From contig JAAVFV010000046.1 in NCBI GenBank assembly GCA_014800525.1, positions 1 through 59,720 of the forward strand: 59,720 nucleotides of DNA. Reading direction: 5' to 3'. The stretch comes from Bacteroidales bacterium (GTDB taxonomy: Bacteria; Bacteroidota; Bacteroidia; Bacteroidales; Muribaculaceae). The position numbers and the translations under genes are program-made. Shown here piece by piece: positions 35,264 through 41,248 of the stretch (position 1 is its first letter; every line of letters starts with the position of its first letter). The notes beneath the pieces were generated by a model, which did not search any database, had not been told where the DNA came from, and saw only the letters and a list, made by a program, of their open reading frames with translations.

Positions 35264-37612
35264 ATGACCAAAAGATACCTGACATTATCAATCGCAATAT
35301 CATTAGGATTGTTGCCCCTGCAGGCCGCTTCATTAACTCATGAAGCCGCTTTAGCACGATTAGTGGCAAAAGATTACGGCATTCCCGCTACCGGAAAGTC
35401 ATCAGCAGCAGAATATACATTAGCTAATGTGGCAGAAGGAGCATCGGAGTGGTATGCATTCAATAAGAAAGATGGAGGTTGGGTGATTTTATCCGGAGAT
35501 GATCAAGGGCCTTGTCTCTTAGGATATTCGGATAGCGGATCTTTTGAATATGAAAGGATACCGGAGGCATTTAAATGGTGGTTGAGTCAATATTCCCGGG
35601 AAATCAGAGAGATGCGTACCGGGAAGGTGGCAGGGCCATTAGATGGCGGGTCGCGAAAAACTGCGGAAAAACTTTCAGAGACTGGTGACCGGAAACCGAT
35701 AGTTCCGATGTTGAACACTGCATGGGATCAGAATGCTCCATTTAATCAGTATACCCCGGAGATTGATGGAACCCATGCGCCCACTGGTTGTGTGGCAACA
35801 GCAATGGCGCAGTTGATGAAATTTTACGATTACCCGGCGAAAGGAGAAGGAGTGCTGGAATATTCGATGAATGGATCTAATCTGACTCTGTCCCTTGACA
35901 CGATATCCTTCCGATGGGATAAGATGCTTCCTATCTATGGCTCATCCGCAACAGAGGAGCAGAAGGAGGCCGTGAGCCGACTTATGCAGGCGTGTGGATA
36001 CTCGGTGGAGAGTATCTATGAGAAGAATGTTACAAGTGCATCGGTCTATCTATGGCTTAAAGCCCTTATTCAGAATTTCGGATATGCTCCATCCTCGCGA
36101 CTTGTGAGCCGGATATACCTGAATAATGATGACTGGGACAGGGAGATTTATAATTCTTTGGCTGCCGGGAACCCGGTATTATATTCGGGTCTGGGTAGTA
36201 GCGGAGGTCATGCTTTTGTCTGCGATGGATATTCAGGAGATGGATATTATCATTTTAACTGGGGATGGGCCGGACTGAGTAATGGCTATTTTCTACTTTC
36301 GGCCTTAAATCCCACGGCTTTGGGAACGGGTGGAGGAGCCGGAGGGTTCAATATGGGTCAGATAGCAGTGGTGGATTGTCGTCCTGATTTTGAAGGTTCG
36401 GAGATGAAGCTGCAAATGGGAGTGTTGGAGGGTACGGAGATCACATATTCTAACGTGTCAAGAAATCTCTCCATCACTAACGGGGGCTTGATGAATCTCT
36501 CGGCAATCGCATTCTCTGCGCGTCCCGGATTTGAGATAGAATCCTCTGCGGGAGAGAAAATATATGCCGGCGAGACTAACTCTACTTTGGAATTTCCTGT
36601 GGCATTCACCTTGACAACATATGCCAGAAAGTCAACAGCTACATTGGCTGACGGTGTATATAAGGTGAGACCGGCATTTGGAATTGAGAAAGATGGTAAG
36701 ACTGAATGGTACCGTGCTAATGTACCGGTTTCCTCCTCTCCTTATTGGACATTGGTGATATCAGGAGGGAAAGGAACAATGGAATCAAATGCGCCTAATA
36801 GCGAAATGGAGGTGACAGAGTTCGGACCCGTTACGGGGGTATATGCCTCTACTCAGTTTAAGGTCGGGGCTTCGATTGAAAATAAGGGGGATCGTGAACT
36901 GATGACCAATGTCTATGTGCTGGTATACAAGAAAGATGGTAACCTGGCCATGAAGAGCACTCCCAATCCGATAGATATGATGGCCGGGGAGAAAGACAGA
37001 TTTGACTTCACTGTAGTTCCCACTAATATCTCAGCGGGAGAATATATGTTGGGACTTGGAGTGGCTGTATCCGCGGATGGGAAGGATATTAAAGAGATCA
37101 CTCCCAGAATTCCCCTTGAGGTAAAACCCTTTCAGGCAGAGGTGGAGATGAAGGCCTCGGAGTTCTATGTAAAGAATTCGGAGAATGTGGATGCGGAAAA
37201 TGTTACCCTATGCTTCACTATGAGTTGCCTGAAGGGTAATTATGCCTATCCGGTAAGATTATGGATCCGACCTTCAAGCGTGACTGAAGGAAGCTGGGGC
37301 CAGATGCTTCAGACTAATTACATCTATATGAATCAGGGAGATACCGGAGAATTTGAATACCAATTTGAATATCCCAAAGGAGAACCCGGAGAGACATATA
37401 CGTTGACAGCCAATTATGTGATACCTCAGAGTCAGGCTTGGTTAGGAACCTGCGAATTTACGCTGGGAACCCCATCGGCCATAGAGACCATATCAGAAAA
37501 GGATGATGAGGTGGTCAGATATTATACATTGCAAGGCATCGAAGTTAAAAACCCTTCTAAAGGAATGTTTATCAGAGTAAAAGGGGGGATTATAGATAAA
37601 GTGATTCTATGA
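35264..37612 (+). CDS. Secreted C10 (streptopain-like) cysteine peptidase
   Basis: 782 residues with a signal peptide (MTKRYLTLSIAISLGLLPLQA). The inhibitory propeptide spans about 25-140 (GGWVILSGDDQGPCLLGYSDSG), and the C10 catalytic domain follows: nucleophile Cys176 in TGCVATAMAQLMKFYDYP, His316 in SSGGHAFVCDGY and the HFNWGWAG motif. After about residue 380 come beta-rich Ig-like modules. The C-terminus (YYTLQGIEVKNPSKGMFIRV) resembles a type IX secretion sorting tail, implying cell-surface or extracellular delivery. Relatives include SpeB and interpain. Substrates unknown. Followed by the LRR gene after 59 nt, probably cotranscribed. Confidence 0.85.
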   Translation: MTKRYLTLSIAISLGLLPLQAASLTHEAALARLVAKDYGIPATGKSSAAEYTLANVAEGASEWYAFNKKDGGWVILSGDDQGPCLLGYSDSGSFEYERIPEAFKWWLSQYSREIREMRTGKVAGPLDGGSRKTAEKLSETGDRKPIVPMLNTAWDQNAPFNQYTPEIDGTHAPTGCVATAMAQLMKFYDYPAKGEGVLEYSMNGSNLTLSLDTISFRWDKMLPIYGSSATEEQKEAVSRLMQACGYSVESIYEKNVTSASVYLWLKALIQNFGYAPSSRLVSRIYLNNDDWDREIYNSLAAGNPVLYSGLGSSGGHAFVCDGYSGDGYYHFNWGWAGLSNGYFLLSALNPTALGTGGGAGGFNMGQIAVVDCRPDFEGSEMKLQMGVLEGTEITYSNVSRNLSITNGGLMNLSAIAFSARPGFEIESSAGEKIYAGETNSTLEFPVAFTLTTYARKSTATLADGVYKVRPAFGIEKDGKTEWYRANVPVSSSPYWTLVISGGKGTMESNAPNSEMEVTEFGPVTGVYASTQFKVGASIENKGDRELMTNVYVLVYKKDGNLAMKSTPNPIDMMAGEKDRFDFTVVPTNISAGEYMLGLGVAVSADGKDIKEITPRIPLEVKPFQAEVEMKASEFYVKNSENVDAENVTLCFTMSCLKGNYAYPVRLWIRPSSVTEGSWGQMLQTNYIYMNQGDTGEFEYQFEYPKGEPGETYTLTANYVIPQSQAWLGTCEFTLGTPSAIETISEKDDEVVRYYTLQGIEVKNPSKGMFIRVKGGIIDKVIL

Positions 37613-37671: not shown

Positions 37672-39975
37672 ATGAACGGAAAAATTTACGCATTCCTGCT
37701 TACAGCCGTATCTTTTGCCCTTGGAGCTTCCGCGACTTCAAGAAATGTGGAGATACGTCAGCCGGCCAGTATCGGAGCGAATGATGCTGTGGTCTATCAT
37801 GATCTGTCGCTTGATCCGGTTCCGGCAAGTGTAGATCTCAGTCACCTCATTTCTGTAGGTCAAAATTCAACCACCGGAGAATTAAAGAGACTGGCAACTG
37901 ATCCGAGCGCATTCACCATGGCGTTGGATACCCTTAAAAAGGAGGTATGGATCATAAAATGTAACAGCACGGATGCATCTGTGACAATTCCTGATGAAAT
38001 CACTGTAGGCGATGCAACATATCCTGTGGCTGTGATTAATACCAATGCGTTCAGTGCGTTACCGATGATGAAGGACATCACTTTTGGTAAGAATATCCGC
38101 ACTATCATGCCGAAGGCGTTTTTGGTATGTATGAACCTTACGACTGTAAACCTTAATGAGGGTCTGGTTGAGATTCAGGAGCAGGCATTCTCCACATTCA
38201 CTAACAAGATTACAAGTATCGAATTGCCTTCCACAGTGGAGATCCTTGGCGAACGGTGTTTTTCAGGAACAAGTCTCAGCGGAGAGTTTCTGATCAATAA
38301 GGCCCTTCGACAGATTGGCGGAGGGGCTTTTGCCGGTAAGAAAATCACGGGCTTCTACATAGGGGAGGAGGGAAACAATTATTTCCAGAGTGTAGATGGT
38401 GCGTTGTTCACCAAAGACGGAGAAACCCTCGTGGTATATCCTCCGGCATTGGTGGAGCCGACATTAGTGGTGCCCTCAAGTGTCAAGAAACTTGCTCCTT
38501 ACGCATTTGCTTACTGTAATACGGTGACAAAGGTGGTATTGCCCGAGAATCTTACGGAAATCGGCGATTTTGCATTCAGCGGATGTAAATTGACCGAATT
38601 CACCGTAGGAAAGAATGTCACAAAGTTTGGCGAGGGTGTATTGAAAGATAATACCGGCCTTGCATCAATCGTATTGGAAGAGGGAAATACACATTTTACC
38701 CTTAGGGATGGAATGCTGATTGATAATGCAACCAAGCATCTTCTTGCCGTACCCTATACTAAGACTGAGATTCAGGTTCCGGATGGAGTGACCAAAATCA
38801 GCAGTTATCTATGTTATAATAATCAGAAGGTCACCTCTGTCTCCACTCCGGCCTCGGTGAAAGAAATCGGAGATAATGCTTTCTATGGCTGTCAGGGTAT
38901 AGCCTCGATCGAGATGAAAGGCGTGGAGCGAATTGGTATCAACAGCTTCTACGGAGTAAAGAAGACCCAGAAGGTGGAGTTCCCCTCAACGCTGAAAATG
39001 ATTGATAACTTAGCATTTGCCACAGGCGAGATCGGAGAGTTCGTATTACCTGAAGGAGTTGATTCAATCGGATATGGGGCGTTTATGAACTCCAAGATAG
39101 AGAAGATTAATATCCCGGGAAGTGCAAAAGCATTGGGATCTGCCCTGTTCTATCAGTGTCCGTCTTTGAGCACACTCACAATGGGAGAAGGAATCACTTA
39201 CATTCCGGCCACAATGTGTTATGGATGCGAGAAACTCTATTTCTTTGATTTCCCCTCCACAATCAAGGAGGTCAAAGCGAGTGCTTTCTCATTCTCATGG
39301 TTGCAGATAGCGGATCTTCCGGAAGGGTGTGTGAAGGTGGAAGCAAGTGCATTTCAGTTGGCACCGCTCCATTATATCAACATGCCTAATAGTCTTGAGG
39401 AGGTTGGTGACTTCGGGTTCTCTATTACCAATGCTGAATATGTGAAGTGTGGATCAGGATTGAAGCGTCTGGGTCAGAATGCTTTACAGTCGCAAAAGAA
39501 AGCGGAGACCATCACACTGAATGAAGGCTTGGAATATATCGGTTTCAGAGCTCTATATGGAGAGAGCAACATCACAGAGATGACTATCCCATCCACCGTG
39601 ACACACATTGGAGATAGTGCATTTATCCTTACTCCTCTTACACGGCTGGTGAATCTCTCCAAGACTCCTCAACCTCTGACATCCGCCATCACCGGCAATC
39701 CTTATGATCCGTTCCCGGTGGTGAAACCGATATATGATACCTGCACTCTGGCAGTGCCTTATGGTTGTGCCGAGGCATATCGTGCGGCCGACATATGGAA
39801 ACTCTACGAGAAGATCGAGGAACTTCCCACTACTGAAATTAAGGAAATAGAGGATGCTGAGGAGATTCGGATTGTAAGGATATATGGTTCGGATGGTTAT
39901 CTTAGAAAGGAATTGGGAGATGGTTTGAATATATGCGTGATGTCTGATGGAAGTGTGGTCAAGACCATGAAATAA
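37672..39975 (+). CDS. BspA-like leucine-rich repeat surface protein
   Basis: 767 residues with a signal peptide (MNGKIYAFLLTAVSFALGASA). Residues about 90-690 hold around 20 Treponema/BspA-type LRRs (LRR_5 pattern, e.g. ITSIELPSTVEILGERCFSG). A C-terminal tail (VRIYGSDGYLRKELGDGLNI) resembles a degenerate type IX sorting domain. BspA-type proteins commonly bind host matrix proteins or other bacteria. It follows the C10 peptidase by 59 nt, pairing a protease with a putative adhesin, and ends before a strong terminator (40031-40070). Confidence 0.8.
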   Translation: MNGKIYAFLLTAVSFALGASATSRNVEIRQPASIGANDAVVYHDLSLDPVPASVDLSHLISVGQNSTTGELKRLATDPSAFTMALDTLKKEVWIIKCNSTDASVTIPDEITVGDATYPVAVINTNAFSALPMMKDITFGKNIRTIMPKAFLVCMNLTTVNLNEGLVEIQEQAFSTFTNKITSIELPSTVEILGERCFSGTSLSGEFLINKALRQIGGGAFAGKKITGFYIGEEGNNYFQSVDGALFTKDGETLVVYPPALVEPTLVVPSSVKKLAPYAFAYCNTVTKVVLPENLTEIGDFAFSGCKLTEFTVGKNVTKFGEGVLKDNTGLASIVLEEGNTHFTLRDGMLIDNATKHLLAVPYTKTEIQVPDGVTKISSYLCYNNQKVTSVSTPASVKEIGDNAFYGCQGIASIEMKGVERIGINSFYGVKKTQKVEFPSTLKMIDNLAFATGEIGEFVLPEGVDSIGYGAFMNSKIEKINIPGSAKALGSALFYQCPSLSTLTMGEGITYIPATMCYGCEKLYFFDFPSTIKEVKASAFSFSWLQIADLPEGCVKVEASAFQLAPLHYINMPNSLEEVGDFGFSITNAEYVKCGSGLKRLGQNALQSQKKAETITLNEGLEYIGFRALYGESNITEMTIPSTVTHIGDSAFILTPLTRLVNLSKTPQPLTSAITGNPYDPFPVVKPIYDTCTLAVPYGCAEAYRAADIWKLYEKIEELPTTEIKEIEDAEEIRIVRIYGSDGYLRKELGDGLNICVMSDGSVVKTMK

Positions 39976-40030
39976 AAGCATCATCTGAAATCTCAATATC
40001 ATAAGGATAAATAAATATCCTTATATTTGA

Positions 40031-40070
40031 AGAGACCGATTTGAATTTTGCGTTCAAGTCGGTCTCTTTA
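40031..40070 (+). terminator. Terminator of the C10 peptidase-LRR operon
   Basis: Fifteen-bp arms agagaccgatttgaa / ttcaagtcggtctct (one wobble) with a 7-nt loop, followed by ttta. Confidence 0.85.
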
Positions 40071-40136: not shown

Positions 40137-40168
40137 TTTGGAAATTCAAACATTATGATTTATCTTTG
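40137..40168 (+). promoter_or_regulatory. Promoter of the structured RNA candidate
   Basis: TTTG (40137-40140), exactly 20 nt, TATCTTTG (40161-40168): a full match to the Bacteroidota consensus with no ORF starting downstream for about 320 nt. Confidence 0.85.
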
Positions 40169-40174
40169 TGTTGT

Positions 40175-40415
40175 AATAACAGAGATGAAAGTTTTACCAC
40201 ATCAAAGAAAATTGGGAAACTCATCAAATCTTATGAAATGCCGAGACTAACCTGTAGGTTAATGGCGGGCCCCAACACCTTTTAGGTGTCAACTTCGGTT
40301 GCAGGGGATTACAAAGATCTATGGGAACTCAAATCCTGTCAATCGGAGTTTCGTCACAATACTTTGATGTGGGCCTTATACGAGCCGGCGGAACTGGATT
40401 CCGCCGGCTTTTTTT
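40175..40415 (+). ncRNA. Candidate structured noncoding RNA or riboswitch-like leader
   Basis: About 240 nt bounded by a consensus promoter and a strong terminator. Visible pairings: an 11-bp closing stem (40197-40207 with 40362-40372, ccacatcaaag/ctttgatgtgg); a 7-bp stem (40242-40248 with 40347-40353); local hairpins at 40248-40261, 40275-40289 and 40290-40301 (TTCG tetraloop); and a stem 40302-40310/40332-40338. A ggccc/gggcc pairing (40268-40272 with 40371-40375) would compete with or extend these. I do not recognise the family: it lacks tmRNA, RNase P, SRP or FMN-riboswitch hallmarks. It could be a free sRNA or a terminator-controlled leader of the nitroreductase gene. Confidence 0.65.
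40383..40415 (+). terminator. Terminator of the structured RNA candidate
   Basis: Eleven-bp GC-rich stem agccggcggaa / ttccgccggct, 5-nt loop, directly followed by a run of T. Classic intrinsic terminator, 80 nt before the nitroreductase ATG. Confidence 0.92.
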
Positions 40416-40495: not shown

Positions 40496-41248
40496 ATGGA
40501 AGATATTAGAAAGACATTGCTCGAACGCACAAGTGTGCGCCGTTATGAGAGAGAACGGATTCCTGAAGATCAGATGGAATTTATCCGTGAGGCTGTGCGA
40601 AATACACCGACTTCATACAATGGTCAGCAGTTTTCTGTAATTGAGATTGATGATCAGGAACTTAAGGAAAAACTCTATGAGCTGACCGGTCAGAAGCAGA
40701 TAAAGACGTGCAACCGTTTCATGGCCTTCCTCTCCGATTATAATAAGATTATGGCTCTGGCAGAGGCTAAGGGCATTGATCGTCCGGATATAACATCGAC
40801 AATGGATGGCGTGATGATCGGAGTGATCGATGCTTCGTTGGCAATGATGAGTGCTGTGGTGGCTGCTCAAGCCTGCGGATTGGGAAGCAACTGTATAGGA
40901 TATCTGCGGACAGTGGATCCCGCTAAGGTGGCGGAGATATTGAAACTACCGAAAGGCGTGTTTGTGGTCTGTGGATTGGCAATCGGTATTCCCCGAGAGC
41001 ATCCCGACCTGAAGCCTAAGCAGCCGACTTCCCTGGTGTTCCATAAGAATGAATACCGTCAGGACAGAGAGGCGATGATTGAAGAATTGGAGAAATATGA
41101 TGCAGAGGTGAAGGAATACAATGCTCATCGCTCAGGAGGCACCACCACCAATGATTGGGTATCTCATATCCTGGATTATTATCGTCATGCAGTAGACTAT
41201 AAGATTCTCGATTACCTGAAGGCACAGGGCTATAACATCACACATTAA
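40496..41248 (+). CDS. Nitroreductase family FMN-dependent oxidoreductase
   Basis: 250 residues from the ATG at 40496 (MEDIRKTLLERTSVRRYERE); the upstream in-frame start at 40439 adds a non-homologous leader. Hallmarks: RTSVRRYE at the N-terminus (FMN phosphate contact), PTSYNGQQF (about 40-48), and GLGSNCIGYLR in the C-terminal half. It matches NfsA/FRP-like enzymes that reduce nitro, quinone or flavin substrates with NAD(P)H. No promoter of its own is visible after the terminator at 40415, so expression may depend on readthrough from the RNA promoter at 40137-40168. Confidence 0.9.
   Translation: MEDIRKTLLERTSVRRYERERIPEDQMEFIREAVRNTPTSYNGQQFSVIEIDDQELKEKLYELTGQKQIKTCNRFMAFLSDYNKIMALAEAKGIDRPDITSTMDGVMIGVIDASLAMMSAVVAAQACGLGSNCIGYLRTVDPAKVAEILKLPKGVFVVCGLAIGIPREHPDLKPKQPTSLVFHKNEYRQDREAMIEELEKYDAEVKEYNAHRSGGTTTNDWVSHILDYYRHAVDYKILDYLKAQGYNITH

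Follow-up and report, generated by a model that had tools for sequence, protein, structure and literature searches.

The interval 40137–40415 of the window, the whole analysed stretch of 59,720 nucleotides, carries a promoter, a structured region and an intrinsic terminator on the plus strand, closely followed by a nitroreductase gene. It raises the question of whether the structured region is a leader of the nitroreductase or an RNA gene of its own, and of the class to which such an RNA belongs. The promoter (40137–40168), the structured RNA and the terminator (stem 40382–40410) lie where the initial annotation had placed them, and the features are as follows.

40137..40168, plus strand: promoter TTTG-20 nt-TATCTTTG (TTTG at 40137–40140, TATCTTTG at 40161–40168), which we take to be of the Bacteroidota −33/−7 type
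40169..40196, plus strand: 5′ leader from the −7 box to the closing stem, with a putative start site near 40174
40195..40380, plus strand: core of the Bacteroidales-1 RNA, predicted to be of 6S type (full RF01693 model, positions 1–179; 106.2 bits, gathering cut-off 60)
40197..40207, plus strand: 5′ strand of the closing stem, CCACAUCAAAG, paired with 40362–40372 over 11 bp
40216..40222, plus strand: 5′ strand of the inner helix, GAAACUC, paired with 40346–40352 over 7 bp, with weak covariation
40251..40325, plus strand: apical arm, a covarying stem (40251–40260 with 40316–40325) carrying AAUGGCGGGCC, two hairpins and GGAUUACAAAG
40275..40289, plus strand: hairpin ACACC-UUUUA-GGUGU, read from the sequence and the fold
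40290..40301, plus strand: hairpin with a UUCG loop, read from the sequence and the RF01693 alignment
40346..40352, plus strand: 3′ strand of the inner helix, GAGUUUC; in the alternative pairing 40343–40352 pairs with 40235–40244
40362..40372, plus strand: 3′ strand of the closing stem, CUUUGAUGUGG, covered by the same covariation test
40382..40415, plus strand: intrinsic terminator, stem 40382–40410 and T tail

The RNA had been annotated as belonging to no known family, which a search of the whole window with cmscan against Rfam 15 corrects. RF01693 (Bacteroidales-1, "6S-Bacteroidales RNA suggested") was the sole match over its cut-off, and the whole model was matched at 40195–40380. Its conserved blocks GGGAAACUCAUCA, CCGAGAC, AAUGGCGGGCC, GGAUUACAAAG and GGAGUUU are all present in the window (row L001 of the alignment). 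The score is lower than that of the best family members, which reach up to 184.4 bits. Low-threshold matches to other Rfam models near the interval (rli52, DdR4, asR3, OmrA-B and four more) were far below their cut-offs and were rejected as chance. The structured RNA is therefore a member of an already catalogued family and is not new. Weinberg et al. listed Bacteroidales-1 in 2010 as a probable RNA and entered "?" under both cis-regulation and switch in their table (PMC2864571), and Porphyromonas gingivalis strains carry a Bacteroidales-1 annotation (PMC5771137). In two further papers, the passages that bear on the subject refer to E. coli, to Eubacterium or to genera without affiliation, and not to the family of the window (PMC7160235, PMC6749105).

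RF01693 occurs once in the genome assembly of the window (76.5% complete). Within the same taxonomic family it was found in 73 of 79 genomes, with one match each and all over the cut-off, and in 62 of the 63 genomes of good quality. G069, which belongs to the same genus and is listed as 99% complete, gave no RF01693 match with strict filters; an assembly gap, divergence or loss would each account for this. With the same filters, 39 of 148 genomes in the order sample were matched (30 over the cut-off), and 4 of 148 in the phylum-wide sample, where only the window's own match exceeded the cut-off. A covariance model of our own that includes the closing stem (R1, whose training loci came in part from genomes that were also searched) matched 45 of the 148 order genomes versus 39 for RF01693, which is a small gain, and missed G229, G320 and G343, three genomes that RF01693 matches weakly. 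At an E-value of 0.001, 58 of the 148 order genomes are matched by one or more of the models RF01693, 6S-Flavo and R1. The other 90 match none of the three models with strict filters at this threshold, so 6S RNAs are either lacking there or have diverged beyond the reach of these models.

The fold was then compared with chance expectation. The region 40178–40415, terminator included, folds with −78.6 kcal/mol versus −58.3 kcal/mol (sd 4.35) for shuffled sequences (z = −4.67), and none of 200 shuffles was as stable, which agrees with the earlier claim of more structure than expected at random. The compact hairpins described before, one of them with the TTCG loop, are also found, at 40275–40289 and 40290–40301. 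For covariation, 103 oriented loci were reduced to 99 by removing three duplicates of other loci (L078, L068 and L069) and L075, whose anchor motif was weak and in the wrong place. From these, 85 distinct relatives entered the alignment A1, 65 of them from the taxonomic family (window included) and the remaining 20 from elsewhere in the order. L084 (identical to L082) was left out, as were L097, L102, L109, L112, L113, L116 and L117, whose long insertions meant that the 3′ strand was lost or at risk in a fixed-length cut, and L070–L074 and L076, which were divergent or cut. The alignment was made by sequence and was not fitted to the structure.

The 11-bp closing stem proposed at 40197–40207/40362–40372 is present in the minimum-energy fold predicted from the window sequence by itself and passed the test for compensatory changes. 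Among the 85 relatives, 94.6% of its cells are paired and both sides have changed in 10 of the 11 pairs. There are 73 double-change cells versus a shuffle mean of 14.1, and none of 500 shuffles reached any of the five measures. Relatedness alone can beat shuffles, for which reason the pair-counting measure is safer; it too was reached by 0/500 shuffles for the closing stem. When the partner strand was slid by 1–3 columns, pairing fell to 37–44%. When the apical arm, the inner helix and the closing stem are taken as one structure, double changes occurred in 26 of 34 pairs (0/500 shuffles), and unconstrained RNAalifold recovered all but two of the 11 closing pairs as well as the greater part of the apical arm. 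These results show that the closing stem and the apical arm are supported by covariation. The consensus printed by Rfam for RF01693 pairs only the apical arm and leaves the outer positions unpaired, so the closing stem, which covaries in the window RNA and its relatives, is an addition to the Rfam drawing.

The region between the two arms behaves differently from them. The 7-bp inner stem GAAACUC/GAGUUUC of the initial annotation holds as a complementarity at 40216–40222/40346–40352, but it is absent from the single-sequence lowest-energy fold. In the 85 relatives 97.5% of its cells are paired, four of the seven pairs are invariant, and three double-change cells are found. Its covariation score was reached by 84 of 500 shuffles and its number of pair types by all 500, and sliding the partner by +1 to +3 gave 5, 4 and 3 double-change cells versus 3 without sliding. 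RNAalifold on A1 omits this helix and gives part of its bases local partners; the inner helix thus rests on complementarity, conservation and the three double-change cells. An alternative pairing of GAAAUGCCGA (40235–40244) with UCGGAGUUUC (40343–40352) keeps 95.0% of its cells and likewise shows three double-change cells (5, 4 and 4 for slid partners). The two pairings are mutually exclusive, and both are kept (at least 6/7 pairs of the first and at least 8/9 of the second) in 72 of the 85 relatives; neither is whole in the RNAalifold prediction. A local pairing of GAGUUUC with 40324–40330, seen in the window, was rejected, as its full seven pairs are not conserved (19/85 and 12/85 at two positions). 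The two conserved pairings may represent alternative states of a switch, or their conservation may reflect protein contacts. A large open central bubble between two arms is typical of 6S RNAs; in the window RNA the corresponding region holds these two pairings.

The 6S label of RF01693 is worded as "suggested" in Rfam, and its relation to 6S-Flavo (RF01685) was examined through genomes that match both models. RF01693 and RF01685 fell at one locus in all five such genomes (G090, G131, G173, G261 and G296). Three of these are the non-window RF01693 genomes of the phylum sample, where RF01693 scored 38–41 bits (cut-off 60) and 6S-Flavo matched at the same place; cmscan of these three loci gave both families on the same strand, with 6S-Flavo at 96.8 bits in one (over its cut-off of 85) and at 49.8 and 49.3 bits in the other two. 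The two from the order sample, G261 and G296, have one locus each, with 6S-Flavo over its cut-off in neither. Among all five, RF01685 is over the cut-off in G131 only and RF01693 in G261 only, the rest being sub-threshold matches with E ≤ 0.001. R1 and RF01685 also coincided in the four order genomes that match both (G261, G269, G270 and G296). In addition, RF01693 and RF01685 have ACUC...GGAGUUU at corresponding places and share a GCC...GGAU core.

In the genome of the window (76.5% complete), neither RF00013 (6S) nor RF01685 gave a match at E 0.001, and at the RNA interval neither matched up to E 10. RF01693 is consequently the only 6S model that recognises the window directly, and no other 6S candidate was detected in this 76.5% of the genome. 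In the phylum sample RF00013 matched 15 of 148 genomes, none of which also matches RF01693 or RF01685 (E 0.001). Compared with the RF00013 RNAs (E. coli ssrS, B. subtilis 6S-1 and 6S-2), the window RNA is of similar size and also has a closing stem below an apical arm, whereas its central region is long and of nearly invariant sequence. E. coli 6S RNA resembles it in size and shape, and its gene sits before a co-transcribed gene. At the sequence level, the window RNA shows features of the 6S class: covariation of the closing stem, one or few copies per genome, its own promoter and no fixed downstream gene. A dRNA-seq study of B. thetaiotaomicron reports the Bacteroides 6S RNA and, made from it, product RNAs of two classes (PMC7366714); this 6S RNA is assumed here to be the RF01693 counterpart, and a 6S RNA was detected in Flavobacterium psychrophilum (PMC9723704).

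Taken together, the structured RNA is probably a 6S-type RNA of Bacteroidales, predicted to bind RNA polymerase, and we give this reading a probability of about 0.88. It might instead be a conserved free RNA of the Bacteroidales with a non-6S function, such as base-pairing with mRNAs or binding to a different protein. The missing RF00013 match and the strong sequence conservation outside the covarying stems would suit such a function, but the shared locus of RF01693 and 6S-Flavo and the product RNAs reported in B. thetaiotaomicron argue against it, and we consider it improbable.

The layout of the locus bears on whether the RNA is transcribed by itself. The assignment of the promoter presumes the Bacteroidota −33/−7 consensus; a scan with a sigma-70 model found no promoter. 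Of the 73 family loci, 69 have a TAnnTTTG box 5′ of the RNA, where order-1 Markov resampling predicts 4.8; of the 26 order loci, 24 have it, where 1.8 are predicted. This makes 93 of 99 loci when both sets are pooled, with the window's own locus included. The fuller promoter, with TTTG 17–22 nt before TAnnTTTG, was found in 38 of 73 family loci (0.6 expected) and 13 of 26 order loci (0.2 expected). At the other end, the terminator stem has 12 pairs, a loop of 5 and a following T run; the terminator scan of the 700-base region found one terminator versus 0.6 expected in shuffles. The distance from the −7 box to the closing stem is about 9–79 nt in the taxonomic family (median 39, 69 loci); in 24 loci from the order's remaining families its median is 21. 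A small hairpin resembling GCAAGAGAGC is seen by eye in the 5′ leader of several family members, and in 12 of 69 by strict search. The variable 5′ leader is possibly a processed leader.

Upstream of the RNA, the gene at 37672–39975 encodes a BspA-type leucine-rich-repeat protein (PF13306). A strong hairpin at 40030–40068 (AAGAGACCGATTTGAA ... TTCAAGTCGGTCTCTT) lies directly 3′ of its stop; it is probably the terminator of this gene or a repeat, and it is absent from the output of the terminator scan. Further upstream, an ORF of 782 aa at 35264–37612 presumably resembles secreted C10-type cysteine peptidases.

Downstream, the gene on the same strand is a nitroreductase (PF00881). As noted earlier, it starts close after the terminator without an evident promoter: its likely ATG is at 40496, 85 nt past the terminator stem, and no TAnnTTTG lies between the two in the window, so readthrough into the nitroreductase is possible at this locus. 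The initial annotation had offered two readings of the RNA, a ligand-sensing leader that controls this gene by terminator readthrough and a free regulatory RNA. Besides the short distance, the question marks in the 2010 table are compatible with a leader. However, when the count is limited to loci with 900 nt or more of downstream sequence, a nitroreductase lies within 600 nt downstream on the strand of the RNA in only 2 of 28 family loci (the window's own and L018 of the same genus) and 0 of 28 order loci. For named loci chosen by DNA pattern, the count is 10 of 88 among the matches listed, and in L191 the nitroreductase is on the opposite strand. Within one kilobase downstream, the longest ORF shares the strand of the RNA in 13 of 28 family loci, 13 of 28 order loci and, among the matches listed, 49 of 88 named loci, which is about even. 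In these counts the named set (at least 119 loci) overlaps the family set (for example, L183 and L018), and the order group of 29 still includes the family loci L068 and L069 and the misplaced-anchor locus L075. A riboswitch or leader of the nitroreductase is contradicted as a function of the RNA family by this neighbourhood, with no conserved same-strand gene downstream, and we regard such a leader as very improbable. Because the neighbour is not conserved, its strand is about even and the RNA has its own TAnnTTTG box, the RNA element is an independent gene. The reading as a free regulatory RNA, with its own promoter and terminator and no fixed downstream gene, is supported.

The interval had also been described as free of ORFs, which is inexact, as four plus-strand ORFs overlap it (three of 50–60 aa and one of 36 aa), although their frames are broken by indels among relatives. 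These ORFs would be the basis for regarding the locus as the start of a short coding gene, or its structure as due to chance, but the stability of the fold, the covariation of the stems and the frame breaks make this the least probable reading, and a short coding gene is rejected.

For the preferred reading as a 6S-type RNA, the following mode of action is proposed. Transcription would begin at the RNA's own promoter and end at its own terminator, both of which are seen in the sequence, and would yield a free RNA of about 240 nt. This RNA would fold as a long interrupted hairpin made of the closing stem, a conserved open or switchable centre and the covarying apical arm. Homology to 6S-Flavo and to 6S RNAs in general suggests that this rod may mimic an open promoter and occupy the housekeeping RNA polymerase holoenzyme, and transcription would be lowered in this way when growth slows. 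The RNA would be released, again by homology, once it has served the polymerase as template for a short product RNA. More tentatively, a built-in switch between the two GAGUUUC pairings might release the RNA on polymerase loading or product RNA synthesis, and RF01693 and 6S-Flavo might be a single family whose members have the core in common, together with a closing stem that the Rfam drawing lacks; we consider this combined proposal possible but rather doubtful.

These findings remove a false lead, since the locus holds neither a new riboswitch nor a new RNA class. The annotation of the RNA gains a closing stem that is missing from the printed RF01693 structure and is supported by covariation. 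Judged from sequence, the co-location of RF01693 and 6S-Flavo in the five genomes that match both lends support to the 6S label that Rfam suggests for this family.
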